Of a stretch of 64,000 bases of DNA, positions 3,897 through 60,087 are shown one piece after another. The stretch is from Dysidea avara (taxonomy: Eukaryota > Porifera > Demospongiae > Dictyoceratida > Dysideidae). Position 1 is the first letter of the stretch, and every line of letters starts with the position of its first letter. The position numbers and the translations under genes are program-made. A model generated the notes under the pieces. That model was not told the origin of the DNA. It made no database searches and saw nothing but the letters and a program-made list of their open reading frames with translations. The stretch covers positions 29,737,525 to 29,801,524 of the forward strand of contig NC_089279.1 of assembly GCF_963678975.1 (NCBI RefSeq), written 5' to 3'.

Positions 3897-4772
3897 ATGA
3901 TTAGGATCAATATCATTATAGGATTTATAGCTTTGGTGCTTGTGATGGGAGGTCAAGCAGTTCCTGTTAACAGTGATTCAACTGAACAGAAAACAACAAT
4001 TCCTACCTCTGACATCAGTGGACTACACAAAAATGCAGAATTGCAGGTTTTCAAAATACTGCAACAAATTACACGTCTGGAGTTGGCCAAAGTACGTAGG
4101 TAGCTACACACATCTATGTACAAACACTAGTTATAGTTTAAGGTAATACTATGACGATTATCATTGTGTTTGTATTGTTTTAAAGAATGAAACATATGAC
4201 CTATTTCACCAAATCTGCTACGAACGCTACAACACAATGTGTGAAGTTGTAAGTTGAGAATCTCTTGGGCATACATAACACCTGCATACAGTCTCAGACA
4301 TACATACATTGATACACACACGCACATGCACGCACACACACTCACCATGCACACACGCACGGCACATACATACAAGGTTACTATTCTCTTACACTTGTAG
4401 GATATCAATACCATCAGGGATGACGTCACATCACTGGCACAGCTACTCCCTGTTATTCAACATCTTGCTAACAATGAAACTGATGAATATATTATTACTA
4501 AATACAATGAAACGATCAAATTCATGGAGAATAGTATTTCAGCCCTTAACAACCTGGTAAGTTCAACACAGAGATACACTAATACTTGATCATACTTCAC
4601 CACACTTCTCCACACATTGTAGATTAGAGCATTAGACAGTAAGGATGCTGCACCAGCAACTACAACAGAAAATCAACGATATGAAAATCTTGATAACTTT
4701 GTGAAGCTGAGTATGCTCAAGTTACAAGTGGAATTGACCTTCAGAGATCTTGAACACCTTCCAATAAACTAA
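3897..4772 (+). CDS. A1: secreted four-exon helical protein, type A
   Basis: Exons 3897-4091, 4186-4248, 4401-4556 and 4623-4772 encode 187 aa; all introns are phase 0 with GT-AG ends (94, 152 and 66 nt). Residues 1-21 are a signal peptide (hydrophobic 6-17, cleavage expected after GQA). Residues about 40-65 (exon 1) form an amphipathic helix; exon 2 (66-86) is NETYDLF then a Cys-x7-Cys; exon 3 (87-138) has two helical stretches split at NNETDEY; exon 4 (139-187) has a Thr-rich linker and a long amphipathic helix (FVKLSMLKLQVEL). Asn-Glu-Thr at 66-68 and in NNETDEY are N-glycosylation sequons. The start is the only ATG before the signal peptide, 83 bp after the TATA box. ATTAAA at 4880-4885 is a candidate poly(A) signal. 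Family not recognised; the exon plan equals short-chain helical cytokines, so an extracellular signalling role is a hypothesis. Other options are a secreted effector or venom-like helical peptide. Confidence 0.8.
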
Positions 4773-5526
4773 CAGTCTTGTAGAATATGATGGGCAGTTT
4801 TAGTAGTACATAGGACAAGTTGAAATATGACATTGTAATTTTTTACTGTGTACACTTTTGGCACTTGTATCACTTATTAATTAAATTGATAATTGTTTGA
4901 GAAGAGGGCTATAGGTTGAATATTGTGGAGATAGTATCACTGTTGCATGGTATTGCCCATTTGCTTTACTAGTTGACAGTTACAATTGTCAATGACATGT
5001 ATGCATGACTACGTAAACACAAAATACTTTTTAAAATGTCTTTTGAGGAGGACTGTATCTTTTGCAAGTATGATTGACAGTGTGAATTTTTTTGTCATGG
5101 CTATCATCCTGTTAAGGACAAACTTAATCATATACAGTGTACCAGTCTGTTTAAACATAGTTATACAAGAGGTCTATGTATATTATGCAATCTATGCATA
5201 TATACGTACAAACAGAAAATGATGCCAAATCAACTAGCTGATATGAACTAAATGAATTTCAAGGTTAACCAACTGGTATTAGTTGCTGTCTCTTCTCTTG
5301 TGTCCTCATACTTTAAAATAATATTTTAAGAACTGTAAAGACAATATACAAGGTACAGCAGGAGTCCCAATTAGGCTTCAAAGAAAGCTATATATAGGAA
5401 TATAACTCTAAATAACAATTAAGATTAAATAACAGTTAAATAATAGTATAAGGTCTTAGGAGCCAACTAAACCTGTAGTTATAGAGGTAAGATCATAAAT
5501 TCAGAACTATGAATGTTATATAGTGC
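4773..5526. other. A1 3' flank, noncoding
   Basis: The first about 450 bp are the 3' UTR and flank shared by all A genes, up to the motif CTATACAAGAGG near 5160-5172. Beyond that the sequence is unlike the A-B spacers of later units, and no B gene follows. Small open frames here are not conserved in other copies. Confidence 0.6.
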
Positions 5527-5534
5527 CTCCTGAG

Positions 5535-5949
5535 TAGGCACCGGCCTATTATGCCCGAAATTTTACCTATTATGCTTTTGAGCATTGCTCAAAAATTAAG
5601 CCTATTATGCTCAAAATTATGCTTTCGAAATCAAAATTATGCTCTAGAAGTGACTGTTTTATTAGAGTATATCAACCTTTCCTGACTGCTCTATTAGAGT
5701 ATCTCGATCTTATTTCTGCAAAGTGTGAATAACCAACAAAGAAACGGTTTAATAAGTTGTATTACGTGTTTTTGATTATGAAATGTACTAATAATACTAT
5801 TGGCAGTGAATATTTGCTTTCTTTCAGGCGCGCATATTGCGCATTTAATTAATTTTTCAAATATCGTCCCTATTATGCTGGCATTATGCTTGATGCTTTT
5901 GGCCACCTATTATGCTTTAAATTATGCCGGCATAATCGGCCGGTGCCTA
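5535..5949. mobile_element. hAT-type MITE, 415 bp
   Basis: Terminal inverted repeats begin TAGGCACCGGCC and end GGCCGGTGCCTA, flanked by a perfect 8-bp target duplication CTCCTGAG (5527-5534 and 5950-5957). Eight-bp duplications and short TIRs are typical of hAT elements. The interior repeats CCTATTATGCT several times and holds no transposase. A paired CTCTAATAGAG-type motif lies inside on the reverse strand (about 5646-5708). Confidence 0.85.
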
Positions 5950-5957
5950 CTCCTGAG

Positions 5958-7596
5958 ATCACTTAATATGATGCTAGTTGGTAACTTGCCTGCACAACTA
6001 TCAATATCAGTAACTGCATATGCACAGATGATTCTTGCGCACTAATGGGGTACTACCAATATCCTTTAGGGGTTTCCCTCACAAATGACAAAAGAGGAGG
6101 GGCTCAACAGTGGGGACACTCCTCCTGGTAGGGGAAATCCAGACTAGCTTTAGGGGATTCCCTTTGGATACAACTGACCTTCATAATTAATTGACAGTTC
6201 AGATACAAAATCTGAACTGTCCCCAAGTGATCAACACAGAATGGGTAACAGTTCTTCCCTTAAAGGGGAAATCTATGAACTGCATGTACATAGCTACTGA
6301 CATTTAAACAAATTGAGCAATGCCCCAGGTGGGTAGATAACCCATCCCTGTGTGTAAAAATTATACACCCAGCCTTCACATGTATCTCTATTATCAGCAA
6401 AAACACACAGGTCAAACTATTTGGGTCCCATATGACAAAGCAAAACATTCCTCTGGAGGAGTGCACATAACATATAATTTTCAGTTCTGTTTAGCTAGTA
6501 ATGAAAAAGAAGCACATGATATGTGTGAAGATGTTAATATGACATATTTTATGAACAAGAGACTAGAAGTTGTATCAGAATCTTACATGTGACTGCCTAA
6601 TTTTGAACTAACATTTTAAAAAGACGGAACACTTTGTCCTATATAGATTGCTTTGGTACTTTTGGGTAGGTTCAGTAAGTATGAATGATTTAAAATCATG
6701 CATGTCTTCATTTCAGTGTTTGCACAGTCATATATTAGGTACCCACAACTTATTACAATGTACCAGCTATCTCATAAACAAGACCACCTCATTGTAGTGA
6801 CCACATCTAGCAGGTCCCAAACATAACAATTGACCCACACAAGTATATACATTTTTTGTTATTGTAAAAGTGACTTTTGGTATATAGAAGAAAAATGTAT
6901 CATTCCTGCTCAGTTATTAGTGAATTACTTTCATATGTGTATGCTTTGGAACCAAGAACAGGCGTCACTGGAATTAGTAAGGTGTCCAAATTTCAAGCAT
7001 TGTATTGATGTCCTTGTCATTATGTTTAAATTTATACTCTCATGTTAACAAAAAGAGTATTCTATCTGAACTACATACATCCTAAAATGCAGTTGCAAGA
7101 ATCAACTACCCTATTGAAGATCACAGATCCCAGCTGTTGTGGCTCCTCTCATGCCTAGACTGGGGATCAAGTCACCAATGGGTCTGGGATTTTTTCTGCA
7201 TTCTGCAACGTTTCAGTAACATGTTTCTGACTCCCTGTATTCACAGGCTTTAGCCTTATCAAAGGTCCCTAGTGGGATAGCATTTAATATTGTATTGTTC
7301 AGATAGTTATTAATGACTCACCTTAACTTTACAGAAATGTCAATATGAAGGCTGTAAACAAGGGAATATACCCTAAAAATTCAGTGTCTCTGCTGCAGCC
7401 CCTCCCATTTTGTAACTTGTGTGTTTTATATGGGGAATCCCTAAAAGATATTGGTGCCTGTTTTGTTCAGCAAAGTAGCTATATACACTGATGAAAATTA
7501 TTTTGTTATTGTTGATGGAAATATTCCTCCTGAGCCCTTCCTGACTTAAGTTGGAATTGAGTAGTTAATTCATGGATTTGAATTAACAAATTCATT
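5958..7596. other. A1-A2 spacer, noncoding
   Basis: From about 6260 the sequence matches the stretch that lies between the Derlin fragment and the A gene in later units, but no Derlin exon and no B gene is present. A GC-richer module with GGGGATTCCC-like palindromes (about 6055-6170) recurs, partly inverted near 7340-7470. Open frames such as 6350-6592 are not conserved as proteins between units and are judged spurious. Confidence 0.6.
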
Positions 7597-7818
7597 TTCC
7601 CAGAAGGAATTAGTATTTATCAACAGAGGATGTGGATACTAAAATGGCAGAATTAATAATTTTAAAAATATATACTGATGTTTACATTGCTGTTTAGAAA
7701 AATCCCCTTCTTGTAATAGGACTGGAATGCAGCCAATCATGCTTCCCATGTACCAGATATCAAATTTCAACACAGTTCCAATCATGTTGCAAAATGCATA
7801 GTTGAAAGAGTATAAAAG
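7597..7818 (+). promoter_or_regulatory. Promoter module of gene A2
   Basis: TTCCCAGAA at 7597-7605, forkhead-like TGTTTAC, kappaB-like GGGGATTTTT on the reverse strand, CCAAT box and TATAAAAG at 7811-7818. Confidence 0.6.
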
Positions 7819-7910
7819 AGCTGCAGATACCTGAACATTTCAGTTGAGAGCAATCAGAGTTGAGAACATCTAACTAAAAAGATCTGTTATCAAAGAGAAG
7901 AGACCTGAAA

Positions 7911-8777
7911 ATGATTAGGATCAATATCATTATAGGATTTATAATTTTGGTGCTTGTGATGGGAGGTCAAGCAGTTCCTGTTAACAGTGATTCAACTGAA
8001 CAGAAAACAATAATTCCCACCTCTGACATCAGTGGACTACGTGAAAATGCAAAATTGCAGGTTTTCAAAATGCTGCAGCAAATTACACGTCTGGAGTTGG
8101 CCAAAGTACGTATAGGTACTGTAGCTACACACATCTATGTACAAACGCTAGTTATAGTTTAAGGTAATATAAGTATGACGATTATCATTGTGTTTGTTTT
8201 ATTTTTATAGAATGAAACATATGAATTGTTTCACCAAATCTGTTATGTACGCTACAACATAATGTGTGAAGTTGTAAGTTGAGGATCTCTTGTACACACA
8301 TAACATTCTACATACAGTCACAGACATGCATGGATACACACACACACACACACGTACACCACACGCACACAAACAAGATACACAATAATGTTACTGCTCT
8401 CTTACACTTGTAGGATATTAATACCATCAGGGATGACATCACATCACTAACACAACTACTCCCTGTTATTCAACATCTTGCTAGCAATGAGACTGATGAA
8501 TATATCATTACTAAATACAGTGAAATGATCAAATTCATGGAGAGCAGTATTTCAGCCCTTAACAATCTGGTAAGTTCAACACAGAGACACACTAAAAATA
8601 TTGATCACACTTCTCCGCACACTCTAGATTAGAGCGTTGGACAGTAAGGATACTGTACCAGCAGCTACAACAGAAAATCAAAGATATGAAAGCCTTGATA
8701 AGTTTGTGAAGCTGAGTATGCTCAAGTTGCAGGTGGAATTGACCTTCAGAGATCTTGAACATCTTCCGGTCAACTAA
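7911..8777 (+). CDS. A2: secreted four-exon helical protein, type A
   Basis: Exons 7911-8105, 8210-8272, 8414-8569 and 8628-8777; 187 aa; all splice sites intact. It differs from A1 in exon 2 (NETYELFHQICYVRYNIMC, Cys-x7-Cys kept) and by several substitutions in the helices. Its exon 4 (RALDSKDTVPAATTENQRYE then SLDKF) is almost identical at DNA level to that of A7, 48 kb away, and not to those of A4-A6. Both N-glycosylation sequons present in A1 are retained at the start of exon 2; in exon 3 HLASNETDEY keeps the second. Confidence 0.8.
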
Positions 8778-10512: not shown

Positions 10513-10520
10513 ACAAGAGG

Positions 10521-12742: not shown

Positions 12743-13507
12743 ATGGAGATTCAGAAAATGATGATTGTTTTAGTAGTAGTAGCAGCAGTTATATTGGATA
12801 CACAAGCAGCTCCAACTGTCTCTACAGATGAACTTCAAAGATTACGATTAATTGCAGAAACACAAGTTCTCAGTTCACTTCAAGAAATCGTAGCACTAGA
12901 GAAATACACAGTGAGTACACATCTATACACTAACAATATGTAGTAATAGCTTAAATGAAGTATGATTATCTAATTAGCTATTGTTTTATTAATAGAATGA
13001 AAAATATGACTCGCCTAATGAAGATTGCTATGTACGCTTTGAACCAACCAATAATGCTGTGAGTTGTTAGATATTGATATACACACATATACGCACGTAC
13101 AGTGTACACAACAAAGTTACTATTCTCTTACGCTTGTAGGATATCAATACCATCAGGGATGATGTCATATCACTAACACAACTGCTCCCTGTTATTCAAC
13201 AACTTGCTGACAAGGAGACTGATGAATATACAATCACCAAATACAATGAAATTATCAAGTTCATGAAGACTAGTATTACAGCCCTTAACAACCTGGTAAG
13301 TTCAACACTTGTACACACTAATACATACTTGTTATCACGCTTCTCCACACATTTTAGATTAGAGCTTCAGGCAGCACAGATACTGCACTAGCAGCTACAA
13401 CAGATAACCAACAATGTGAAGAACATAACAAAGTAGTGGAAATGAGTTCCCTCAAGTTACAAATGCAATTGACTTTCCAAGATCTTCAACTTCTCCAGAT
13501 CAACTAG
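12743..13507 (+). CDS. B1: secreted four-exon helical protein, type B
   Basis: Exons 12743-12910, 12996-13058, 13140-13295 and 13358-13507 encode 178 aa with all introns phase 0 (donors GTGAGT, GTGAGT, GTAAGT). Residues 1-22/23 are a signal peptide (MMIVLVVVAAVIL, cleavage near TQA-A). Residues about 28-55 form an amphipathic helix; exon 2 (57-77) has a single Cys at 67; exon 3 (78-129) carries two helices; exon 4 (130-178) has the second Cys at 149 and a terminal helix (SSLKLQMQLTFQDLQLL). The two Cys could form one disulphide joining the exon-2 loop to the loop before the last helix. N-glycosylation sequons of type A are absent (NEKY, DKETDEY). Exon 3 is nearly the same as in type A. This copy ends in TAG and has Val where B2-B6 have Ile near residue 50. 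Function not recognised; see A1 for the cytokine-like hypothesis. Confidence 0.8.
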
Positions 13508-15269: not shown

Positions 15270-18200
15270 TTATTACATCACAAGTTATTCTGTAGGGAGT
15301 TCAGCTGCAAATAGTTAATCTTATAGACAGTTCAGCAAGAAGACAGTCACCATGTGGAGAGTTAAGCAAATATACCACTATAGAGATTCAGAACATTACA
15401 AGTCACACTGAAGAAAGTTCAGCTATAAACAAGTCATGCACTGTGTAGAGAATTCAGCTATAATTAAGTCACTCTCTAGAGAATTCAGTTACACAGAATT
15501 CAGCTACACACAAGTCACTGTGGAGAGAGTTCAGCTACAAACAAATTACCCTTTAGAGTGATCAGCTACAAACAAAACACTTTGCAGGGTGTTCAACTGC
15601 AACAAATCAATTACCTTTAGAGCGATCAGCAATGAACAAATCAACACAAATCTACCTGTAGAGAGATCAGCTAGAAACAAATCACCCTGTAGAGAGTTCA
15701 GCTACAAAAAATCACCCTGTAGAGACATCAACTAGAAACTAGACACAATGTAAGGAGTTCAGCTACAAGCAATCACCCTGTAGAGAGTTCAGCTAAAACA
15801 AATCAACCTGCAGAGAGATCAGCTACAAACAATTCACCTTATAGACAGTTCAGCTACAAACAAATTACCCTGTAGAGAGATCGGCTACAAACAAATCAAC
15901 CTGCAGAGAGATCAGCTACACACAAATCAACTTGTAGAGAGATCAGCTACAAACAAATCACCCTGTAGAGAGATCAGCTAGAAACTAGACACAATGTAAG
16001 GAGTTCAGCTACAAGCAAATCACCCTGTAGAGAGTTCAGCTACAAACAAACCAACCTGTAGAGCGATCAGCTAGAAACAAATCACCCTGAAGAGAGGTCA
16101 GCTACAAAAAATCACCCTGTAGAGATATCAGCTAGAAACAAATCACCCTGAACAGAGGTCAGCTACAAAAAATCATCTTGTAGAGAGATCAACTACAAAC
16201 AAAACACTTTGCAGAGAGTTCAGCTACAAACAAATCAACCTTTAGAGCGATCAGCAACAAACAAATCAACCTGTAGAGAGATCATCTAGAAACAAATCAA
16301 CCTGCAGAGAGATCAGCTACAAACAAATCAGCTTGTAGAGAGATTAGTTACACACAAATCAACCTGTAGAGAGATAAGCTAGAAACAAATCACCCTGTAG
16401 AGAGATCGGCTACAAACAAATCACCTTATAGATAGTTCAGCTACAAACAAATTACCTTGTAGAGAGATCGGCTACAAACAAATCACCCTGCAGAGAGATC
16501 AGCTACACACAAATCAACTTGTATAGAGATCAGCTACAAACAAATCACCCTGTAGAGAGATCAGCTACAAACTAGACACAATGTAAGGAGTTCAGCTACA
16601 AGCAAATTACCTTGTAGAGAGTTCATCTACAAACAAATCAACCTGTAGAGCAATCAGTTAGAAACAAATCACCCTGAAGAGAGGTCAGCTACAAAAAATC
16701 ACCCTGTAGAGAGAAACAAATCATCCTGAAGCGAGGTCAGCTACAAACAAATCAACTTTTAGAGTGATCAGCAACAAACAAACCAACTTGTAGAGAGATC
16801 AGCTACAAACAAATCAACCTGCAGAGAGATCAGCTACAAACAAATCAGCTTGTAGAGAGACCAGTTACACACAAATCAACCTGTAGAGAGATAAGCTAGA
16901 AACAAATCACCCTGCAGAGAGTTCAGCTACAAGCAAAACACCCTGTAGAGAGTTCAGCAACAAAGAAACCACCATGTAGAGAGTTCAGCTGCAAACAAAT
17001 CACCTTATAGAGAGTTAAGCTACAAACAAATTACCCTGTAGAGAGATCAGCTACAAACAAATCAACCTGTAGAGAGATCAGCTAGAAACTAGACACAATG
17101 TAAGGAGTTCAGCTACAAGTAAATCAGCCTGTAGAGAGTTCAGCTATAACAAATCAACCTGCAGAGAGATCAGCTACAAACAAATCACCTTATAGACAGT
17201 TCAGCTACAAACAAATTACCCTGTAGAGAGATCGGCTACAAATTAATCAACCTGCAGAGAGATCAGCTATACTTAAATCAACTTGTAGAGAGATTAGCTA
17301 CAAACAAATCACCCTGTAGAGAGATCAGCTAGAAACTAGACACAATGTAAGCAGTTCAGCTACAAACAAATCAACCTGCAGTGAGATCACCTACAAAAAA
17401 GCACCTTGTACAGAGTTCAGCTACAAACAAATTACCCTGTAGAGAGATCGGCTACAAACAAATCAACCTGTAGAAAGACCAGCTACACACAAATCAACTT
17501 GTAGAGAGATCAGCTACAAACAAATCACCCTGTAGAGAGATCAGCTAGAAACTAGACACAATGCAAGGAGTTCAGCTACAAGCAAATCACCCTTTAGTGA
17601 GTTCAGCTACAAACAAATCAACCTGCAGTGAGATCACCCACAAAAATGCACCTTGTACAGAGTTCAGTTACAAACAAATTACCCTGTAGAGAGATCAGGT
17701 AGACAGGTAGAAGAATTCACCTGTAGAGAGTTCAGCAACAAAGAAACCACCATGTAGAGAGTTCATCTGCAAACAAATCACCCAGTAGAAAGATCAGCTA
17801 GAAGAAGTCACCTTGTAAAGAGTTCAGCTACAAAGAAACCATCATGTACAGAGTTCGGCTACAAAGAAACCACCATGTAGAGTGTTTAGCTGCAAAAAAT
17901 CACCTGTAGAGAGTTCAGCTAGAAACAAATCACTCTGTAGAGAGATCAGCTAGAAGAGGTCACCTTGTAGAGAGTTCAGCTACAAAGAAACCACCACATA
18001 AAAAGTTCAGCTGCAAATAAATCACTTGTAGAGAGTTCAGCTACAAATAAATCCCCCTGTAGAGGGATCAGCTAGAAGAAGTCACCTTGTAGAGAGTTCA
18101 GCTACAAAGAAACCATCATGTAGAGAGTTCAGTTACAAACAAATCACCCTGTAGAGAGATCAGCTAGAAGAAGTTACCTTGTAGATAGTTCAGCTACAAA

Positions 18201-18905
18201 CAATTCACCCTGTAGAAAGATCAGCTAGAAGAAGTCACCTTGTAGAGTGTTCAGTTACAAAGAAACCATCATGTAGAGAGTTCAGCTGCAAACAAATCAC
18301 TCTGTAGAGAGTTCAGCTACAAAGAAACCGCCATGTAGAGAGTTCAGCCTCAAACAAACCACCTTGTAGAGAATTCAACTACAACAAATCACCCTGTAGA
18401 GAAGAAGTTACCTTGTAGAGAGTTCAGCTACAAAGAAACCATCATGTAGGGAGTTCAGCTACAAAGAAACCACCATGTAGAGAGTTTAGCTGCAAACAAA
18501 TCACCTGTAGATAGTTCAGCTAGAAGCAAATCACCCCGTAGAGAGATCAGCTGGACGAAGTCACCTTGTAGAGAGTTCAGCTACAAAGAAACCATCATGT
18601 AGAGAGTTCAGCTGCAAACAAATCACCCTGTAGAGAGTTCAGCTACAAAAAAATCACCCTGTAGAGAGTTCAGCTAGACGAAGTCACCTTATAGAGAGTT
18701 CAGCTACAAAGAAACCATCATTTAGAGAGTTCAGCTACAAAGAAACCACCATGTAGAGAGTTTAGCTGCAAACAAATCACCCTGTAGAGAGACCAGCTAG
18801 AAGAGGTCACCTTGTAGAGAGTTCAGCTACAAAGAAACCATCCTGTATATAGTTCAGCTAAATTGCAAGTCACTGAGTAGAGAGATCAGCTGCAAAAAAA
18901 TATCC
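15270..18905. repeat. 31-bp satellite array, about 3.6 kb
   Basis: Roughly 115 head-to-tail monomers of 31 bp. A typical monomer reads AGCTACAAACAAATCACC followed by CTGTAGAGAGTTC. Variants alternate in fixed order: the left two thirds contain a variant with CTAGACACAATGTAAGG (about 15738, 15988, 16574, 17088, 17338, 17553) spaced near multiples of 31, giving a higher-order unit of about 8 monomers; the right third (about 17700-18860) is built from AAAGAAACCATCATG and AGAAGAAGTCACCTTG variants. Edges are degenerate. It has no counterpart in other units. Confidence 0.85.
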
Positions 18906-19109
18906 TGTGGGGAATAATAGGCATGTAATAAATATATGTATATAATTTGTATAATTACTAATAAAATTAAAAATAAGTGAAGTATTACAAAATTAATCTT
19001 CTTTAAGTTCTTTTCTTCTTCCTGTGATAAAGAAAAAAACACATGGGTTAAAAAAGCCACAAAGCTAGCCATAGGCCGGCTTTGCAGTATACAAATACAA
19101 AAAGAAGTG

Positions 19110-19437: not shown

Positions 19438-20270
19438 AAATATAACAGTTAATCTTGGTAGCAAATTAAAACAATACATTTTACAGTTAATGTCCACCAA
19501 ACTGTTGTCCAGCTCCCCAATTATGTCTATTGTCATCTCCCAGACATTTGTGAGCAGTCGGCTGTGGAGCACCGAATCCTGACACTCCTCCACGACGGCT
19601 TGGAAAATATTTATACCTAGAGTAATAGAATAACACTTTATCCACAGCATACCACAAAACTGTTGATTTTGCTAAGCACAAATGTCTGATATATGATGTA
19701 TGTGAGTATTTTCTAAGTTTGTTCTTACAATATTTCAGGAGTGTGTAACAGTTCCCTTCCTCCATATTCCTCAGGGTAACGATACTTCAGGAAGTAGTAG
19801 AGATGCCCCACTAATATGCCAATCAGCTTGTTCACTCCACTGTGGACATGAAAATAGAAAATTACAGGACATCCTAAACTGCACACAATCACTACGTACA
19901 TAAACATTTAAGTAGGTCCCACAAATTAGCAATTTTCATTGTCACAAATTTTTGCATCAAGGACACCTCTGAATAAAAATTGATATATGTATGACTTATA
20001 CATGGTGGAAGGATCAGTTCTTTAATTTTACAGCAGAAAGTATGATAGAAACAAAGGGATGATTGTTATTCATGCAGAACTACATTCAGCTGTGAAGCTG
20101 ATTAGTACAGAACACAGAATAACACATGACTCCAAAAAAAATTACAAAAAAAACAACAAACAAATAAACAAAAAAAAACACCTTATACGTATGATTTTTA
20201 AAAATTGATTTAAAACTCGTGTTTCTAAAACATCCATTGTAAAGATGCAGATGTTAGTACTTAGTCTGGC

Positions 20271-20540
20271 AGCCTCTTTGCAAAAGTAAGGGTTTGGTGA
20301 AACAAAAATACCACATCACTTCAAAAGGAATCCAATTAGACAGTGTATGTAACTGCTGGGTACGTCAGCTGATTGTCCTTCAATTTGAACAAAAGAATTG
20401 CATTGCCAAGGTGATCTGTGTGTGAATGTTATTGGCACACATCAATTTGAACTACTGAATTTGAGTGTTAGAAATGATTTAGTATCTGTATTTCACCAGA
20501 CCCTTACTTTTTTGTAAAGGGGTGGGCGGTGCCACACTAG
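20271..20540. mobile_element. MITE with long TIRs inside the Derlin intron
   Basis: Ends of the type CTAGTCTGGCA and TGCCACACTAG carry inverted repeats of about 45 bp that include AAGTAAGGGTCTGGTG. The same element is in all Derlin fragments: 29239-29529 (longest TIR agreement), and internally shortened copies at 37408-37560, 45527-45679, 53658-53810 and 61754-61906. Target duplication unclear, so superfamily not assigned. Confidence 0.6.
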
Positions 20541-22202: not shown

Positions 22203-23030
22203 ATGATTAGGATCAATATCATTATAGGATTTGTAGCTTCGGTGCTTGTGATGGGAGGTCAAGCAGTTCCTGATTCAACTGAACAGAAAACAATTCCTAC
22301 CTCTGACATCAGTGGACTACGTGAAAATGCAAAACTGCAGGTTTACAAAATACTGCAACAAATCACACGTCTGGAGTTGGTCAAAGTATGTAGGTATCTA
22401 CACACATCTACGTACAAACACTAGTTATAGTTTAAGGTAATAATTATAAGTATATTATCATTGTGTTTGTATTGTTTTTGTAGAATGAAACATATGACTT
22501 ATTTCACCAAATCTGCTACATACGCTACAACACAATGTGTGGAGTTGTAAGTTAAAAATCTCTTGTACACACATAACATCTACATACAGTCACAGACATG
22601 CATGAACACACACACACAAACAAGATACACAATAATGTTGCTGTTCTCTTACACTTGTGGGATATCAATACCATCAGGGATGATGTCACATCACTAACAC
22701 AACTACTCCCTGTTATTCAACGTCTTGCTAACAATGAGACTGATGAATATATCATTACTAAATACAGTGAAATGATTAAATTCATGGAGAGCAGTATTTC
22801 AGCCCTTAACAATCTGGTAAGTTCAACACAGAGACACACTAAAAATATTGATCACACTTCTCCACACACTCTAGATTAGAGCATTGGATAGAAAGGATAC
22901 TGCACCAGCAGCTACAACAGAAAATCAACTATATGAAAACCTTGATAAATTTGTGAAGCTGAGTATGCTCAAGTTGCAAGTGGAATTGACCTTCAGAGAT
23001 CTTTTTTCCAATCAACTAACAGTCTTGTAG
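22203..23030 (+). pseudogene. A3: type A gene with a lost splice acceptor
   Basis: Exon-equivalents 22203-22385 (61 codons, lacking the four residues VNSD and the like), 22484-22546, 22661-22816 and 22875-23030. The acceptor before exon 3 reads CTTGTGG in place of CTTGTAG in every other copy, so the AG is gone. The next AG downstream (in ACCATCAG) would give an immediate stop. Exon 4 has a small deletion near its end that changes the last residues and moves the stop from TAA to a TAG at 23028-23030. Because every intron is phase 0, skipping exon 3 would keep the frame and give a protein without its two central helices. Probably a pseudogene; a truncated product cannot be excluded. Confidence 0.7.
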
Positions 23031-26742: not shown

Positions 26743-27503
26743 ATGGAGATTCAGAAAATGATGATTGTTTTGGTAGTAGTAGCAGCAGTTATATTGGATA
26801 CACAAGCAGCTCCAACTGTCTCTACAGATGAACTTCAAAGATTACGATTAATTGCAGAAACACAAGTTCTCAGTTCACTTCAAGAAATCATAGCTCTAGA
26901 GAAATACACAGTGAGTACACATCTATACACTAACAATACGTAGTAATAGCTTAAATGAAGTATGATTATCTAATTAGCTATTGTTTTATTAATAGAATGA
27001 AAAATATGATTCGCCTAATAAAGATTGCTATGTACGCTTTGAGCCAACCAATAATGCTGTGAGTTGACAGATGCACACACACATATGTGCACGTACCGTG
27101 TACACAATAAGGTTACTATTCTCTTACACTTGTAGGATATCAATACCATCAGGGATGACGTCACATCACTAACACAACTACTCCCTGTCATTCAACACCT
27201 TGCTGACAAGGAGACTGATGAATATATCATCACCAAATACAATGAAATTATCAAGTTCATGAAGACTAGTATTACAGCCCTTAACAACCTGGTAAGTTCA
27301 ACACCTGTACACACTAATACATACTTGTTATCACGCTTCTCCACACATTTTAGATTAGAGCTTCAGGCAGCACAGATACTGCACTAGCAGCTACAACAGA
27401 TAACCAACAATGTGAAGAACATAACAAAGTAGTGAAAATGAGTTCCCTCAAGTTACAAATGCAATTGACTTTCCAAGATCTTCAACTTCTCCAGATCAAC
27501 TAA
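26743..27503 (+). CDS. B2: secreted four-exon helical protein, type B
   Basis: Exons 26743-26910, 26996-27058, 27136-27291 and 27354-27503; 178 aa; all splice sites intact. Compared with B1: Ile for Val in the first helix, NKDC for NEDC in exon 2, QHLADKETDEYII in exon 3 (closer to type A) and KMSS for EMSS in exon 4. The signal peptide and the first helix are identical in B2-B6 although flanking DNA has diverged, which suggests purifying selection. Confidence 0.8.
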
Positions 27504-36682: not shown

Positions 36683-38196
36683 TTAATGTCCACCAAGCTG
36701 TTGTCCAGCTCCCCAATTGTGCCTGTTGTCATCTCCGGGACGTCGGCTGTGGAGCTGACACTCCTCCACGATGGCTTGGAAAATATTTATATCTAGAATA
36801 TTAGAATAATACTTTATACACAGCATACCACAAATCTGTTGATATTGCTAAGCACAAATGTGTGACATATGATGCATGTGAGTATTTTCTAAGTTTGTTC
36901 TTACAATATTTCAGGAGTGTGTAACAGTTCCCTTCCTCCATACTCCTCAGGGTAACGATACTTCAGGAAATAGTAGAGATGCCCCACTAATATGCCAATC
37001 AGCTCGTTCACTCCACTGTGAACATGAAAACAGAAAATTACAGGACATCCTAAACTGCACACGATCACTGCATACATAAACATTTAAGTAGGTCCCACAA
37101 ATTAGCAAATTTCATTGTCACAAATTTTTGCATCAAGGATACCTCTGAATGAAAATTGATGTATGTATGACTTATACATGGTGGAAGGATCAGTTCTTTA
37201 ATTATATATGATAGAAACAAAGGGATGATTGTTATTCATGCAGAACTACATTCACTTGTGAAGCTGATTAGTACAGAACACAGAATAACAAGTAATAAGG
37301 ACAAAAGTCTTAGCCAAAAAAAGCTTGCAAAAAAAAACTTATACGTATGACTTTTAAAAACTAATTTAAAACTGGTGTTTCCATTGTAAAGATGCAGATA
37401 TTAGTACCTAGTGTGACAGCCCCTTCGCAAAAGTAAGGGTCTAGTGAAACAAAAATACCACATCACTTCAAAAGGAATTCAATTAGACATTGTATGTAAC
37501 TGCTGGTTACGTCAGCTGATACCTTTACTTTTTGCAAAGGGGTGGGTAGTACCAGACTAGTAAGTCCTATGGATGAAATTCTCAGCAAAAAACAAAAGCT
37601 TTCATGTGTTGAAAATTCAAACATCTGCTTGTAACCAAATAGACCCTTAACAAATAATTAAAATAACAACAATTCCCCATACAAACAAATCAAGGTACTT
37701 ATCCTCCTCGTAGGATGAAATTCAATCCAGCAAACACCCATGGTAAATACATTGCCTGAAATAGTAACCCGACATGTTAAGACAGTCTTATTAACCAGTG
37801 CAATGTTTGTATTTGGCCATTGAAATTATATTTTTGAATCATACGCCTATACACAATCTATGTAAATTTTATACAGAGTAATTCTTACAATATCTCTATC
37901 CCAAACACCAACCTGATTGTATTCTTATTGGAGAAATATCTTGATTTTAGAGATACAAACAAATGTATAGTTGTATGCAAATGGGACACCAAATTATTTT
38001 ACACAAGTATCTGATAATCAAGACGTTCCCCTTTAGGGGTTCAAGTACAGCACAACAATGTAATTATTACACAATCTTACAATACAACATTTTGTAGTAC
38101 CTTAAATCTCATTCCAAACCAGAATGACACAATGACATCAGCATTAAGTTGACACCACACATACATGACACTCAAAATCAGCTACTCCATCAACAA
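36683..38196 (-). pseudogene. DERL1-like: D3: decayed Derlin 3' fragment
   Basis: Exon-equivalents 38101-38196, 37703-37755, 36905-37015 and 36683-36792. Lesions: in-frame TAG after LLME in the first; the donor after the second is AT in place of GT (forward ACTTATCC for ACTTACCC); the last exon lost 9 nt (SGFG region) and 11 nt, which shifts the frame before the p97-binding tail. The third exon (LIGILVGHLYYFLKYRYPEE) is intact. The same lesions occur in D4 and D5, so they arose before those copies were made. Confidence 0.8.
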
Positions 38197-39910: not shown

Positions 39911-40745
39911 ATGATTAGGATCAATATCATTATAGGATTTGTAGCTTTGGTGCTTGTGATGGGAGGTCAAGCAGTTCCTGTTAACAGTGATTCAACTGAA
40001 CAGAAAACAACAATTCCCACCTCTGACATCAGTGGACTACGTGAAAATGCAAAATTGCAGATTTTCAAAATACTGCAACAAATTACACGTCTGCAGTTGG
40101 CTAAAGTACGTAGGTAGCTACATACATCTATGTACAAACACTAGTTATAGTTTAAGGTAATACTATGACAATTATCATTGCTTTGTATTGTTTTATAGAA
40201 TGAAACATATGACATATTTCACCAAATCTGCTACGAACGCTACAACACAATGTGTGAAGTTGTAAGTTGAGAATCTCTTGTACATAGATAACATACACAG
40301 TCACAGACATGCATGGATACACACACACACACGTACACAAACAAGATACACAATAATGTTACTGTTCTCTTACACTTGTAGGATATCAATACCATCAGGG
40401 ATGATGTCACATCACTAACACAACTACTCCCTGTTATTCAACATCTTGCTAACAATGAGACTGATGAATATATCATTACTAAATACAGTGAAATGATCAA
40501 ATTCATGGAGAGCAGTATTTCAGCCCTTAACAATCTGGTAAGTTCAGCACAGAGACACACTAAAAATATTGATCACACTTCTCCACACACTCTAGATTAG
40601 AGCATTGGACAGTAAGGATACTGTACCAGCAGCTACAACAGAAAATCAACGATACGAAAATCTCGATAAATTTGTGAAGCTGAGTATGCTCAAGTTGCAG
40701 GTGGAATTGACCTTTAGAGATCTTGAACATCTCCCAGTCAACTAA
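39911..40745 (+). CDS. A5: secreted four-exon helical protein, type A
   Basis: Exons 39911-40105, 40199-40261, 40382-40537 and 40596-40745; 187 aa; splice sites intact. Exon 1 protein is identical to A6 and A7. The helix reads GLRENAKLQIFKILQQITRL. Exon 2 begins NETYDIFHQICYERYNTMC. Confidence 0.8.
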
Positions 40746-43038: not shown

Positions 43039-43822
43039 ATGGAGATTCAGAAAATGATGATTGTTTTAGTAGTAGTAGCAGCAGTTATATTGGATACACA
43101 AGCAGCTCCAACTGTCTCTACAGATGAACTTCAAAGATTACGATTGATTGCAGAAACACAAGTTCTCAGTTCACTCCAAGAAATCATAGCTCTAGAGAAA
43201 TACACAGTGAGTACACATCTATACACTAACAATATGTAGTAATAGCTTAAATGAAGTATGATTGTCTAATTAGCTATTGTTTTATTAATAGAATGAAAAA
43301 TATGACTCGCCTAATGAAGATTGCTATGTACGCTTTGAGCCAACCAATAATGCTGTGAGTTGTTAGATATTGACAGATACACACACTATACTAAATGTGC
43401 ACGTACACACGTACAGTGTACACAATGTTAGTTACTATTCTCTTACGCTTGTAGGATATCAATACCATTAGGGATGACGTCACATCACTAACACAACTAC
43501 TCCCTGTTATTCAACATCTTGCTGACAAGGAGACTGATGAATATACAATCACCAAATACAATGAAATTATCAAGTTCATGAAGACTAGTATTACAGCCCT
43601 TAACAACCTGGTAAGTTCAACACCTGGACACACTAATACATACTTGTCATCATGCTTCTCCACACATTTTAGATTAGAGCTTCAGGCAGCACAGATACTG
43701 CACTAGCAGCTACAACAGATAACCAACAATGTGAAGAACATGACAATGTAGTGAAAATGAGCTCCCTCAAGTTACAAATGCAATTGACTTTCCAAGATCT
43801 TCAACTTCTCCAGATCAACTAA
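43039..43822 (+). CDS. B4: secreted four-exon helical protein, type B
   Basis: Exons 43039-43206, 43292-43354, 43455-43610 and 43673-43822; 178 aa; splice sites intact. Protein looks identical to B3; the DNA differs at only a few sites. Confidence 0.8.
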
Positions 43823-44801: not shown

Positions 44802-46315
44802 TTAATGTCCACCAAGCTGTTGTCCAGCTCCCCAATTGTGCCTGTTGTCATCTCCGGGACGTCGGCTGTGGAGCTGACACTCCTCCACGATGGCTTGGAA
44901 AATATTTATATCTAGAATATTAGAATAATACTTTATACACAGCATACCACAAAACAGTTGATATTGCTAAGCACAAATGTGTGACATATGATGCATGTGA
45001 GTATTTTCTAAGTTTGTTCTTACAATATTTCAGGAGTGTGTAACAGTTCCCTTCCTCCATACTCCTCAGGGTAACGATACTTCAGGAAATAGTAGAGATG
45101 CCCCACTAATATGCCAATCAGCTCGTTCACTCCACTGTGAACATGAAAACAGAAAATTACAGGACATCCTAAACTGCACACGATCACTGCATACATAAAC
45201 ATTTAAGTAGGTCCCACAAATTAGCAAATTTCATTGTCACAAATTTTTGCATCAAGGATACCTCTGAATGAAAATTGATGTATGTATGACTTATACATGG
45301 TGGAAGGATCAGTTCTTTAATTATATATGATAGAAACAAAGGGATGATTGTTATTCATGCAGAACTACATTCACTTGTGAAGCTGATTAGTACAGAACAC
45401 AGAATAACAAGTAATAAGGACAAAAGTCTTAGCCAAAAAAAGCTTGCAAAAAAAAACTTATACGTATGACTTTTAAAAACTAATTTAAAACTGGTGTTTC
45501 CATTGTAAAGATGCAGATATTAGTACCTAGTGTGACAGCCCCTTCGCAAAAGTAAGGGTCTAGTAAAACAAAAATACCACATCACTTCAAAAGGAATTCA
45601 ATTAGACATTGTATGTAACTGCTGGTTACGTCAGCTTATACCTTTACTTTTTGCAAAGGGGTGGGTAGTACCAGACTAGTAAGTCCTATGGATGAAATTC
45701 TCAGCAAAAAACAAAAGCTTTCATGTGTTGAAAATTCAAACATCTGCTTGTAACCAAATAGACCCTTAACAAATAATTAAAATAACAACAATTCCCCATA
45801 CAAACAAATCAAGGTACTTATCCTCCTCGTAGGATGAAATTCAATCCAGCAAACACCCATGGTAAATACATTGCCTGAAATAGTAACCCGACATGTTAAG
45901 ACAGTCTTATTAACCAGTGCAATGTTTGTATTTGGCCATTGAAATTATATTTTTGAATCATACGCCTATACACAATCTATGTAAATTTTATACAGAGTAA
46001 TTCTTACAATATCTCTATCCCAAACACCAACCTGATTGTATTCTTATTGGAGAAATATCTTGATTTTAGAGATACAAACAAATGTATAGTTGTATGCAAA
46101 TGGGACACCAAATTATTTTACACAAGTATCTGATAATCAAGACGTCCCCCTTTAGGGGTTCAAGTACAGCACAACAATGTAATTATTACACAATCTTACA
46201 ATACAACATTTTGTAGTACCTTAAATCTCATTCCAAACCAGAATGACACAATGACATCAGCATTAAGTTGACACCACACATACATGACACTCAAAATCAG
46301 CTACTCCATCAACAA
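44802..46315 (-). pseudogene. DERL1-like: D4: decayed Derlin 3' fragment
   Basis: Exon-equivalents 46220-46315, 45822-45874, 45024-45134 and 44802-44911. Same stop, donor loss and last-exon deletions as D3. Confidence 0.8.
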
Positions 46316-48029: not shown

Positions 48030-48861
48030 ATGATTAGGATCAATATCATTATAGGATTTGTAGCTTTGGTGCTTGTGATGGGAGGTCAAGCAGTTCCTGT
48101 TAACAGTGATTCAACTGAACAGAAAACAACAATTCCCACCTCTGACATCAGTGGACTACGTGAAAATGCAAAATTGCAGATTTTCAAAATACTGCAACAA
48201 ATTACACGTCTGCAGTTGGCTAAAGTACGTAGGTAGCTACATACATCTATGTACAAACACTAGTTATAGTTTAAGGTAATACTATGACAATTATCATTGC
48301 TTTGTATTGTTTTATAGAATGAAACATATGACATATTTCACCAAATCTGCTACGAACGCTACAACACAATGTGTGAAGTTGTAAGTTGAGAATCTCTTGT
48401 ACATAGATAACATACACAGTCACAGACATGCATGGATACACACACACACACGTACACAAACAAGATACACAATAATGTTACTGTTCTCTTACACTTGTAG
48501 GATATCAATACCATCAGGGATGATGTCACATCACTAACACAACTACTCCCTGTTATTCAACATCTTGCTAACAATGAGACTGATGAATATATCATTACTA
48601 AATACAGTGAAATGATCAAATTCATGGAGAGCAGTGTTTCAGCCCTTAACAATCTGGTAAGTTCAACACAGAGACACACTAAAAATATTGATCACACTTC
48701 TCCACACACTCTAGATTAGAGCATTGGACAGTAAGGATACTGTACCAGCAGCTACAGAAAATCAACGATATGAAAATCTCGATAAATTTGTGAAGCTGAG
48801 TATGCTCAAGTTGCAAGTGGAATTGACCTTCAGAGATCTTGAACATCTCCCAGTCAACTAA
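48030..48861 (+). CDS. A6: secreted four-exon helical protein, type A
   Basis: Exons 48030-48224, 48318-48380, 48501-48656 and 48715-48861; 186 aa; splice sites intact. One Thr codon is deleted from the Thr-rich linker at the start of exon 4 (PAATENQRYE), and exon 3 has SSVSAL for SSISAL. Confidence 0.8.
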
Positions 48862-51172: not shown

Positions 51173-51956
51173 ATGGAGATTCAGAAAATGATGATTGTTT
51201 TAGTAGTAGTAGCAGCAGTTATATTGGATACACAAGCAGCTCCAACTGTCTCTACAGATGAACTTCAAAGATTACGATTGATTGCAGAAACACAAGTTCT
51301 CAGTTCACTCCAAGAAATCATAGCTCTAGAGAAATACACAGTGAGTACACATCTATACACTAACAATATGTAGTAATAGCTTAAATGAAGTATGATTGTC
51401 TAATTAGCTATTGTTTTATTAATAGAATGAAAAATATGACTCGCCTAATGAAGATTGCTATGTACGCTTTGAGCCAACCAATAATGCTGTGAGTTGTTAG
51501 ATATTGACAGATACACACACTATACTATATGTGCACGTACACACGTACAGTGTACACAATGTTAGTTACTATTCTCTTACGCTTGTAGGATATCAATACC
51601 ATTAGGGATGACGTCACATCACTAACACAACTACTCCCTGTTATTCAACATCTTGCTGACAAGGAGACTGATGAATATACAATCACCAAATACAATGAAA
51701 TTATCAAGTTCATTCAGACTAGTATTACAGCCCTTAACAACCTGGTAAGTTCAACACCTGGACACACTAATACATACTTGTCATCACGCTTCTCCACACA
51801 TTTTAGATTAGAGCTTCAGGCAGCACAGATACTGCACTAGCAGCTACAACAGATAACCAACAATGTGAAGAACATGACAATGTAGTGAAAATGAGCTCCC
51901 TCAAGTTACAAATGCAATTGACTTTCCAAGATCTTCAACTTCTCCAGATCAACTAA
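51173..51956 (+). CDS. B5: secreted four-exon helical protein, type B
   Basis: Exons 51173-51340, 51426-51488, 51589-51744 and 51807-51956; 178 aa; splice sites intact. Exon 3 has KFIQTSITAL where the other B genes have KFMKTSITAL, two adjacent codons changed (ATGAAG to ATTCAG). Confidence 0.8.
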
Positions 51957-52932: not shown

Positions 52933-54446
52933 TTAATGTCCACCAAGCTGTTGTCCAGCTCCCCAATTGTGCCTGTTGTCATCTCCGGGACGTCGGCTGT
53001 GGAGCTGACACTCCTCCACGATGGCTTGGAAAATATTTATATCTAGAATATTAGAATAATACTTTATACACAGCATACCACAAAACAGTTGATATTGCTA
53101 AGCACAAATGTGTGACATATGATGCATGTGAGTATTTTCTAAGTTTGTTCTTACAATATTTCAGGAGTGTGTAACAGTTCCCTTCCTCCATACTCCTCAG
53201 GGTAACGATACTTCAGGAAATAGTAGAGATGCCCCACTAATATGCCAATCAGCTCGTTCACTCCACTGTGAACATGAAAACAGAAAATTACAGGACATCC
53301 TAAACTGCACACGATCACTGCATACATAAACATTTAAGTAGGTCCCACAAATTAGCAAATTTCATTGTCACAAATTTTTGCATCAAGGATACCTCTGAAT
53401 GAAAATTGATGTATGTATGACTTATACATGGTGGAAGGATCAGTTCTTTAATTATATATGATAGAAACAAAGGGATGATTGTTATTCATGCAGAACTACA
53501 TTCACTTGTGAAGCTGATTAGTACAGAACACAGAATAACAAGTAATAAGGACAAAAGTCTTAGCCAAAAAAGCTTGCAAAAAAAAAACTTATACGTATGA
53601 CTTTTAAAAACTAATTTAAAACTGGTGTTTCCATTGTAAAGATGCAGATATTAGTACCTAGTGTGACAGCCCCTTCGCAAAAGTAAGGGTCTAGTAAAAC
53701 AAAAATACCACATCACTTCAAAAGGAATTCAATTAGACATTGTATGTAACTGCTGGTTACGTCAGCTGATACCTTTACTTTTTGCAAAGGGGTGGGTAGT
53801 ACCAGACTAGTAAGTCCTATGGATGAAATTCTCAGCAAAAAACAAAAGCTTTCATGTGTTGAAAATTCAAACATCTGCTTGTAACCAAATAGACCCTTAA
53901 CAAATAATTAAAATAACAACAATTCCCCATACAAACAAATCAAGGTACTTATCCTCCTCGTAGGATGAAATTCAATCCAGCAAACACCCATGGTAAATAC
54001 ATTGCCTGAAATAGTAACCCGACATGTTAAGACAGTCTTATTAACCAGTGCAATGTTTGTATTTGGCCATTGAAATTATATTTTTGAATCATACGCCTAT
54101 ACACAATCTATGTAAATTTTATACAGAGTAATTCTTACAATATCTCTATCCCAAACACCAACCTGATTGTATTCTTATTGGAGAAATATCTTGATTTTAG
54201 AGATACAAACAAATGTATAGTTGTATGCAAATGGGACACCAAATTATTTTACACAAGTATCTGATAATCAAGACGTTCCCCTTTAGGGGTTCAAGTACAG
54301 CACAACAATGTAATTATTACACAATCTTACAATACAACATTTTGTAGTACCTTAAATCTCATTCCAAACCAGAATGACACAATGACATCAGCATTAAGTT
54401 GACACCACACATACATGACACTCAAAATCAGCTACTCCATCAACAA
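52933..54446 (-). pseudogene. DERL1-like: D5: decayed Derlin 3' fragment
   Basis: Exon-equivalents 54351-54446, 53953-54005, 53155-53265 and 52933-53042, with the same lesions as D3 and D4. Confidence 0.8.
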
Positions 54447-56075: not shown

Positions 56076-56160
56076 AACTGCAGATACTTGAAAATTTCAG
56101 TTGAGAGCGAATCAGAGTTGAGACCAAAAAGATCTGTTATCAAAGAGAAGAGACCTGAAA

Positions 56161-57005
56161 ATGATTAGGATCAATATCATTATAGGATTTGTAGCTTTGG
56201 TGCTTGTGATGGGAGGTCAAGCAGTTCCTGTTAACAGTGATTCAACTGAACAGAAAACAACAATTCCCACCTCTGACATCAGTGGACTACGTGAAAATGC
56301 AAAATTGCAGATTTTCAAAATACTGCAACAAATTACACGTCTGCAGTTGGCTAAAGTACGTAGGTAGCTACACACATCTATGTACAAACACTAGTTATAG
56401 TCTAAGGTAATACTATGACAATTATCATTGCTTTGTATTGTTTTATAGAATGAAACATATGACATATTTCACCAAATCTGCTACGAACGCTACAACACAA
56501 TGTGTGAAGTTGTAAGTTGAGAATCTCTTGTACATAGATAACATACACAGTCACAGACATGCATGGATACACACACACACACACACACACACGTACACAA
56601 ACAAGATACACAATAATGTTACTGTTCTCTTACACTTGTAGGATATCAATACCATCAGGGATGATGTCACATCACTAACACAACTACTCCCTGTTATTCA
56701 ACATCTTGCTAACAATGAGACTGATGAATATATCATTACTAAATACAGTGAAATGATCAAATTCATGGAGAGCAGTATTTCAGCCCTTAACAATCTGGTA
56801 AGTTCAACACAGAGACACACTAAAAATATTGATCACACTTCTCCGCACACTCTAGATTAGAGCGTTGGACAGTAAGGATACTGTACCAGCAGCTACAACA
56901 GAAAATCAAAGATATGAAAGCCTTGATAAGTTTGTGAAGCTGAGTATGCTCAAGTTGCAAGTGGAATTGACCTTCAGAGATCTTGAACATCTTCCGGTCA
57001 ACTAA
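56161..57005 (+). CDS. A7: secreted four-exon helical protein, type A (mosaic)
   Basis: Exons 56161-56355, 56449-56511, 56642-56797 and 56856-57005; 187 aa; splice sites intact. Exons 1-3 follow A5/A6, but from about 56844 to the stop the DNA follows A2 (CTCCGCACACTC, AGAGCGTTGGAC, ATCAAAGATATGAAAGCC), with a single difference noticed. The (AC)n run in intron 2 is longer than in A5/A6. Confidence 0.8.
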
Positions 57006-58637: not shown

Positions 58638-58752
58638 TATCAGAATGATGTGATAAAATTGTTGGTGATTTTAATACCGGATTTGAGGGTAACTTGATAC
58701 TAACCACAAACCACAATTTATACAACCAACAAGTTGTTCCTCACAACTCAAC
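58638..58752. promoter_or_regulatory. Distal conserved block, tandem RUNX-type sites, upstream of B6
   Basis: AACCACAAACCACA at 58702-58715. Confidence 0.5.
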
Positions 58753-59006
58753 TACATAGAGGATAATTAAATCACTTAAATGCTGCACTATTTTTTATAA
58801 GTGTGTCTTGTTAGGTGTTGCAACTATATACTACTTGCTTTACAGACCATCTATGGTTTCAAGTGGTCAATTTTGACAAAACAGATATAAACCTGCAATA
58901 TGTGTAATACTACAATTCAAATCTGCACATTAGTTAAGCTGCAATGGGCTTTAACTATTTGTTAGTCATTCCGGAATTTATGTAAATACACAAAAGCTAA
59001 TTCTCT

Positions 59007-59210
59007 TTCCCAGAAGGAATAAATATTTAGCAAGAGAGGATGTTAGTTGACATTGTGGTAGGAATTAAATTGTTTACATTGACCTTTAGAAAAATTCCCC
59101 TTCCTGTGAAATGTAACTTATTAACTTCCCCACATCATTATAGACCAGATCCCAAATTCTAATATAGTTCTGACCATATTACAAAATACGCTGTTGAAAT
59201 AGTATAAAAG
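59007..59210 (+). promoter_or_regulatory. Promoter module of gene B6
   Basis: TTCCCAGAA 59007-59015, TGTTTAC and TATAAAAG 59203-59210. Confidence 0.6.
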
Positions 59211-59304
59211 CTTAAGATTTCTTAACTTGTTAGTTAAAAGCAAAATCAGCGACAAGAATATCTAGCTTAAAAAATTTGTTATCAATTTCTACTGTAATAT
59301 CACT

Positions 59305-60087
59305 ATGGAGATTCAGAAAATGATGATTGTTTTAGTAGTAGTAGCAGCAGTTATATTGGATACACAAGCAGCTCCAACTGTCTCTACAGATGAACTTCAA
59401 AGATTACGTTTAATTGCAGAAACACAAGTTCTCAGTTCACTTCAAGAAATCATAGCTCTAGAGAAATACACAGTGAGTACACATCTATACACTAACAATA
59501 TGTAGTAATAGCTTAAATGAAGTATGATTATCTAATTATCTATTGTTTTATTAATAGAATGAAAAATATGATTCGCCTAATGAAGATTGCTATGTACGTT
59601 TTGAGCCAACCAATAATGCTGTGAGTTGTTAGATATTGACAGATACACACACTATACTATATGTGCACGTACACACATACGGTGTACACAACAAGGTTAC
59701 TATTCTCTTACACTTGTAGGATATCAATACCATTAGGGATGATGTCACATCACTAACACAACTGCTCCCTGTTATTCAACAACTTGCTGACAAGGAGACT
59801 GATGAATATACCATCACCAAATACAATGAAATTATCAAGTTCATGAAGACTAGTATTACAGCCTTTAACAACCTGGTAAGTTCAACACCTGTACACACTA
59901 ATACATACTTGTTATCACGCTTCTCCACACATTTTAGATTAGAGCTTCAGGCAGCACAGATACTGTACTAGCAGCTACAACAGATAACCAACAATGTGAA
60001 GAACATAACAAAGTAGTGAAAATGAGTTCCCTCAAGTTACAAATGCAATTGACTTTCCAAGATCTTCAACTTCTCCAGATCAACTAA
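59305..60087 (+). CDS. B6: secreted four-exon helical protein, type B
   Basis: Exons 59305-59472, 59558-59620, 59720-59875 and 59938-60087; 178 aa; splice sites intact. Exon 3 has QQLADKETDEYTI as in B1 and ends ITAFNNL (Leu to Phe). Last complete array gene in the window; an A8 is expected just beyond the right edge. Confidence 0.8.

Follow-up and report, generated by a model that had tools for sequence, protein, structure and literature searches.

A tandem array of 13 small secreted-protein genes with an IL-4-like exon plan in the sponge Dysidea avara

An array of 13 tandem gene copies in Dysidea avara is, in a judgement that we hold with even confidence, an undescribed and apparently lineage-restricted multigene family of small secreted factors that act in a cytokine-like manner, with a mature protein of about 155-165 aa. 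The copies lie on the + strand between positions 3897 and 60087 of the window, the 64,000-nt stretch that was analysed (NC_089279.1, 29,737,525-29,801,524; all positions are window positions), and gene modelling resolved seven copies of type A and six of type B. The family and its signal peptides, which a preliminary description had announced, were borne out by these models, in all 13 of which the N-terminus is hydrophobic and signal-peptide-like as judged by inspection only. The modelled exons are:

3897-4091, 4186-4248, 4401-4556, 4623-4772, + strand: gene A1, 187 aa
7911-8105, 8211-8273, 8414-8569, 8628-8777, + strand: gene A2, 187 aa
12743-12910, 12996-13058, 13140-13295, 13358-13507, + strand: gene B1, 178 aa
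22203-22385, 22484-22546, (22661-22816), 22875-23030, + strand: gene A3, a probable pseudogene
26743-26910, 26996-27058, 27136-27291, 27354-27503, + strand: gene B2
31777-31971, 32069-32131, 32246-32401, 32460-32609, + strand: gene A4
34923-35090, 35176-35238, 35339-35494, 35557-35706, + strand: gene B3
39911-40105, 40199-40261, 40382-40537, 40596-40745, + strand: gene A5, matching protein record P0002
43039-43206, 43292-43354, 43455-43610, 43673-43822, + strand: gene B4
48030-48224, 48318-48380, 48501-48656, 48715-48861, + strand: gene A6, 186 aa
51173-51340, 51426-51488, 51589-51744, 51807-51956, + strand: gene B5
56161-56355, 56449-56511, 56642-56797, 56856-57005, + strand: gene A7
59305-59472, 59558-59620, 59720-59875, 59938-60087, + strand: gene B6
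31777-60087, + strand: four A+B pairs with a period of ~8.1 kb (A starts 31777, 39911, 48030 and 56161; B starts 34923, 43039, 51173 and 59305)

Exon 1 measures 195 nt in A and 168 nt in B, followed by exons of 63, 156 and 150 nt (exon 4 is 147 nt in A6 and 156 nt in A3), and all three introns are GT-AG and in phase 0 in 12 of the 13 genes, so that the plan of four exons, phase-0 introns and fixed exon sizes proposed earlier holds for every copy except A3. That copy had been set apart for its exon 4, which is indeed altered with loss or change of the native C-terminus, but its exon 1 also deviates (183 nt) and its exon-3 acceptor reads GTGG instead of GTAG, for which reason A3 is probably a pseudogene. 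Types A and B descend from one common ancestor, and because the copies are therefore not independent, their 13 exon plans amount to essentially one observation of one inheritance.

The family is under purifying selection. Pooled dN/dS is 0.026/0.106 (~0.25) for the six A genes other than A3 and 0.012/0.061 (0.20) for the six B genes, values that put the genes themselves beyond chance. Part by part and gaps aside, A5-A7 and B3-B5 are 93-100% identical. Between A5 and B4, dN falls from 0.66 in exon 1 to 0.07 in exon 3, and as identity is also raised in intron 3 (78%, versus 58% in intron 1 and 63% in intron 2), gene conversion is indicated; A1/B1 and A2/B2 show less of a contrast (69% and 73% in intron 2 versus 77% and 78% in intron 3).

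Over its last 171 residues the spliced product of A5 matches P0002 at 100% identity. P0002 is an "uncharacterized protein [Dysidea avara]" in a cluster of eight D. avara records; it starts at the second Met and thus lacks most of the signal peptide. For D. avara, RNA-seq after exposure to a microbial consortium exists for 1, 3 and 5 h (PMC11229196). A second record, P0003 (annotated as 'isoform X2'), equals the A1 protein minus exactly its 21 exon-2 residues and retains the full signal-peptide-like start. Protein database searches also recovered diverged relatives with the exon-3 core on other contigs (P0006-P0016); in one of them, P0011, intron 3 is read through and followed by a similar exon 4. 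These word-sampled, length-limited searches gave 3, 5 and 14 matches, none of them a B-type protein, so B may be unannotated, fused into longer models or untranslated. The same absence would fit the idea that working secreted proteins come from the A genes only and that the B copies, decaying or non-coding, simply travel with the array; we consider this very improbable in view of the B pooled dN/dS of 0.20 and the splice sites and frames that are intact in all six B genes, although recent copying could have carried such frames along.

Pfam scans gave no significant match and no cytokine family among the matches at E<=10, and no PDB sequence matched at E<=10, in agreement with the earlier statement that no sequence homologue could be recognised; according to the accessible part of one study (PMC2654155), sequence searches often miss such cytokines. 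Serine_rich (PF08824, a protein interaction domain) appeared in 4 of 6 sequences (best E 0.0026) and was rejected, the 16.5 bits of P0002 lying below the Pfam gathering cut-off of 26.9.

Predicted structure gave no confident fold for or against the proposed bundle, as the mean pLDDT of the two AlphaFold2 models was 52.7 and 52.6, with 50 and 48 of 171 residues at pLDDT 70-90 and none higher. Only ten-residue blocks within residues 71-120 average above 70, those of the exon-3 region reaching 72-82, and pLDDT outside that region is below 50. Helices are drawn in exons 1, 3 and 4 (the last at pLDDT of about 35-45), with a fifth in exon 2. No cytokine rose above the background in the structure searches. 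Foldseek with the first model returned 160 matches at E<=10 and none at E<=0.001; the 50 listed include two prolactin chains (3ncb, E 1.9; 3n06, E 3.2) and one from an IL-27 complex (8d85, E 3.0), mixed with many unrelated helical chains. VIA with the second model had no cytokine among the 50 matches listed, which mostly cover residues 67-171 and fall within the tool's noise for helical models. As the Pfam, PDB sequence and structure searches gave no clear match to a known non-cytokine family either, nothing refutes a cytokine identity.

Amphipathicity was scored in A5 and B4 as the hydrophobic moment relative to shuffled sequences. The preliminary description had placed amphipathic helices in exon 1 (one), exon 3 (two) and exon 4 (one), which was only partly upheld. 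The two exon-3 segments leaned amphipathic (share of shuffles scoring as well, 0.08 and 0.07 for A5, 0.09 and 0.02 for B4), while exon 1 (0.21 and 0.77) and exon 4 (0.68 and 0.94) did not. At 100 degrees, 69% (A5), 95% (B4) and 63% (P0011) of shuffles equalled the exon-4 segment, whereas for 170-degree alternation the fractions were 0.046, 0.041 and 0.30, i.e., a strand-like alternation in A5 and B4. Putative helix D, which a bundle requires, is the weakest part as far as sequence can tell.

The proteins could instead be secreted defence effectors or matrix glycoproteins that act directly on microbes or tissue, with a coincidental exon plan. This reading, somewhat unlikely in our estimate, would fit the near-identical tandem arrays with fast-changing N-terminal halves, the lack of significant similarity to signalling proteins and the long acidic S/T-rich exon-4 stretches of P0009 and P0014, but inspection showed no antimicrobial signature of the cysteine-rich or strongly cationic sort, and hydrophobic moments are not amphipathic except in exon 3. 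Families of secreted immune genes that are taxonomically restricted and stand in tandem arrays are a known general kind. The sponge genes resemble them in their tandem copies, purifying selection with local homogenisation and lack of an outside homologue found, and differ from them by a cassette exon and by an exon plan like that of IL-4.

IL-2 and GM-CSF are grouped with IL-4 and IL-13 as short-chain four-helix cytokines, and a four-exon phase-0 plan is typical of, though not strictly defining for, the class-I short-chain type. The gene plan that the earlier description had given for such cytokines agrees with print for IL-4 and IL-13, whose four coding exons are separated by three phase-0 introns (PMC4905449, PMC5440397), with the signal peptide and first helix in exon 1 and a short exon 2 (PMC4905449), all as in the sponge genes, whose 156-nt exon 3 lies inside the 126-177 bp of tetrapod IL-4 (PMC4905449). 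Likewise, IL-4delta2 is a natural, inhibitory isoform of IL-4 that skips exon 2 (PMC8416054), as does P0003. A genuine class-I-like short-chain four-helix cytokine family in a sponge would account for these likenesses. In it, exon 1 would supply helix A, exon 2 the A-B loop, exon 3 helices B and C, and exon 4 the C-D loop together with helix D; the protein would signal via JAK-STAT by way of a paired-FN3 receptor, and the exon-2-skipped form would be its antagonist. The model helix borders roughly fit that layout, since H72-94 and H99-127 leave a B-C turn of 4 residues and the connection from A to B is long, and the cysteines of the B genes, one each in exons 2 and 4, could bridge the A-B and C-D loops, P0011 also having an exon-4 Cys; A differs, with both in exon 2. 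Against it stand models too weak to show a bundle, the absence of a cytokine above noise among the Foldseek and VIA matches listed, an exon-4 segment that is not amphipathic and shows strand-like alternation in A5 and B4, the predicted exon-2 helix and a helix C that runs past the exon 3/4 border. Cutting genes at random also gives such exon sizes in about 0.8-0.9% of cases, phase not counted, and small secreted genes are numerous in a genome. The sponge family further departs from IL-4/IL-13 in its lack of a sequence or confident fold match, its doubtful helix D and its 13-copy tandem array. We regard this identity as unlikely; the chance that it is correct is small but real.

The IFN-lambda/IL-10 family offers a precedent, having been recognised partly via exon structure and a helix-fold score, and its members are similarly secreted and divergent with phase-0 introns (the first in IFNL2/3 excepted), although the same source, as far as accessible, warns of many false positives among novel helical cytokine calls from such evidence (PMC2654155). 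Those genes differ from the sponge family in having five conserved exons. Membership there was confirmed through receptors and function.

Upstream of the genes lies a conserved site that we take, by its consensus, to be STAT-like:

3592-3600, + strand: conserved promoter site of A1, TTCCCAGAA, STAT-like

It is exact in 10 of 13 promoters at -298 to -314, B2 having TTCCCGGAA and A4 and B1 being altered. The site speaks for the four-helix cytokine identity. In the accessible portions of the sources, JAK and STAT are reported in Porifera by one paper (PMC13203501), but JAK is placed only in Bilateria by another (PMC6797617), IL6R is traced only to molluscs and CRLF3 was not found in Porifera (PMC13203501, PMC6797617), and these portions name no ligand or receptor for sponge JAK/STAT. 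The full combination of a sponge four-helix family, IL-4-type plan, exon-2-skipped antagonist and STAT-responsive promoters is distinctly unlikely; if true, it would take the ligand side of cytokine/JAK-STAT signalling back to the base of animals, or else amount to a striking case of convergence toward that plan. The exon plan, the IL-4delta2-like isoform and the conserved site together make a concrete candidate ligand for sponge JAK/STAT. Should the cytokine identity fail, the array would still show cleanly how a young tandem family is homogenised around one exon, and would caution against identifying cytokines from the exon plan by itself.

Under our preferred reading of cytokine-like-acting secreted factors, the proteins would be soluble, largely helical and N-glycosylated (NET sequons occur in A exons 2 and 3), and, once released into the sponge body, would work by binding another protein. 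A common core may be formed by the exon-3 hairpin, which is conserved, and specificity may be conferred by exons 1 and 2, which change faster; exon-2 skipping may yield a variant or antagonist form, while array expansion with homogenisation around exon 3 would raise dose and keep the core. The family would belong with immune or communication factors of cytokine-like kind and not with enzymes; descent from vertebrate cytokines is not claimed.

No AATAAA occurs within 400 nt past the stop in any of the 13 genes. A TATA box of the pattern TATAWAAG lies 90-105 nt upstream of the ATG in 9 of 13 genes and is absent there from A5-A7 (A5: CATAAAAG) and B2 (TATAAAAT):

3807-3814, + strand: TATA box of A1, TATAAAAG

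A promoter block, like the TATA box, is common to A and B.

The A and B genes (A1–A7 and B1–B6), thirteen tandem copies for small secreted proteins on the plus strand, are real genes and constitute a real, undescribed family that is apparently lineage-restricted and whose products are most likely soluble binding factors for immunity or communication. Sequence searches returned no known family for these proteins. Gene models were built with the 156-nt exon 3 as an anchor, from which the remaining exons were placed through splice signals and then joined, and every modelled copy (13/13) gave a single open frame. The preliminary description had assigned the same plan to every gene: four coding exons separated by three introns in phase 0, exon 2 being 63 nt and exon 3 being 156 nt long. 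This holds for 12 of the 13 copies, in which all introns are GT-AG and in phase 0, but not for A3, which has no AG preceding exon 3 and an altered C-terminus. As the copies are related by descent, the exon plan common to them amounts to one inherited plan. Their common ancestry likewise makes the pooled dN/dS values of gene pairs descriptive only (0.026/0.106 for the six intact A genes and 0.012/0.061 for the six B genes).

The final four A+B pairs recur with a period of ~8.1 kb. Between A5 and B4, exon DNA identity is 53% in exon 1, 59% in exon 2, 90% in exon 3, and 73% in exon 4, and intron identity is 58%, 63%, and 78% in introns 1, 2, and 3, respectively. The greater likeness of intron 3 compared with introns 1 and 2 suggests that gene conversion in the region of exon 3 acted in addition to selection. 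The contrast to intron 2 is weaker for the pairs A1/B1 and A2/B2 (intron 2 identity of 69% and 73%). The local homogenisation in A5/B4 spans exon 3 to intron 3, e.g., 40382–40595 in A5 and 43455–43672 in B4, with the 5′ half at ~53–63%.

Several protein records correspond to the modelled genes. The last 171 residues of spliced A5 are identical to P0002, an NCBI “uncharacterized protein [Dysidea avara]” whose cluster at the 90% level has 8 members; this record begins at the second Met and therefore lacks most of the signal peptide. P0003, “isoform X2” in its source, equals A1 minus its 21 exon-2 residues, so that exon-2 skipping in A1 has an annotated counterpart and is more than an inference. 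P0005, an open reading frame (ORF) of the window, is listed with a 737,768-base contig. P0004, an A-like exon 1 that matches none of the 13 copies, is listed with a contig of equal length, so a further family copy probably lies beyond the window. A chromosome-level genome of D. avara has been published (PMC12909245).

Exon-3 frames served as seeds for a third protein search, which matched 14 proteins; three of these (P0002, P0003, and P0005) were already known. The others, P0006–P0016, are diverged relatives on contigs of 536 to 766,472 bases, in which a core patterned as S-x-x-Q-L-L-P-V-I...E-T-D...S-I-x-A-L-N-N-L is kept, with exceptions. In P0011 the frame continues across intron 3 to an exon 4 resembling that of the A/B genes, so P0011 has the exon 3/4 border in common with them. 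The exon-4 stretches of P0009 and P0014 are long, acidic, and S/T-rich, and may end at an extra splice donor; the four-exon plan would then not hold for these two relatives.

The exon plan closely parallels that of certain cytokine genes. The published IL-4 and IL-13 genes (PMC4905449, PMC5440397) consist of four coding exons divided by three introns, all in phase 0. In order, the exons carry helix A, the A-B loop, helices B and C, and the C-D loop plus helix D, in agreement with the cytokine layout recounted in the preliminary description. The likeness extends to exon-2 skipping in A1, since IL-4delta2, described in PMC8416054 as an inhibitor of IL-4, arises when exon 2 is skipped. Random cutting of a gene of this size gives such exon sizes in 0.8–0.9% of cases, within size ranges that we chose ourselves, and the chance that all introns are in phase 0 is ~4–22%, varying with the assumed phase-0 share. 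A genome holds, by our estimate, many small secreted genes, and with these chances multiplied over so many genes a single IL-4-like exon plan among them is not surprising. Evidence from fold and exons is also noted to yield many false positives in the IFN-lambda paper (PMC2654155). That the A/B proteins are sponge four-helix cytokines seems to us unlikely.

The sponge JAK-STAT pathway itself is disputed, as two sources disagree on JAK in Porifera: PMC13203501 reports both JAK and STAT there, with IL6R from molluscs on only, whereas PMC6797617 confines JAK and cytokine receptors to Bilateria and did not find CRLF3 in Porifera.

In the promoters, TATAWAAG lies 90–105 nt upstream of the ATG in 9/13 genes. 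The sequence TTCCCAGAA, which we take to be a STAT-type consensus, is found exactly at −298 to −314 in 10/13 genes, inside a block that is conserved across the two gene types; because the promoters are homologous, this conservation is a lead rather than a test.

Other elements lie in and around the array:

160–2560, plus strand: long ORFs 5′ of the array, a possible DNA transposon
15500–18908: minisatellite, units of about 31 bp, some 90-plus copies
19728–19907, minus strand: Derlin exon copy within the array
28689–28868, minus strand: Derlin exon copy within the array
36904–37083, minus strand: Derlin exon copy within the array
45023–45202, minus strand: Derlin exon copy within the array
53154–53333, minus strand: Derlin exon copy within the array
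61235–61414, minus strand: Derlin exon copy within the array
20258–20422, plus strand: frame reading KSKGLVKQKYHITSKGIQLD
37417–37557, plus strand: frame reading KSKGLVKQKYHITSKGIQLD
61766–61903, plus strand: frame reading KSKGLVKQKYHITSKGIQLD

Among the upstream ORFs, that at 655–1302 has a sub-threshold Transposase_21 match (E 0.0007; the score is 19.3 bits and the cut-off 28.6), and three others within 160–2560 gave no match. The sole Derlin exon copy scanned (36904–37083) matched DER1 (PF04511, E 1.4e-10). A tblastn search with human Derlin-1 matched the C-terminal half (about residues 120–249) and found no convincing N-terminal exons, so the six copies are probably 5′-truncated passengers. 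The KSKGLVKQKYHITSKGIQLD frame contains stops in some copies and has a low dN/dS in several units.
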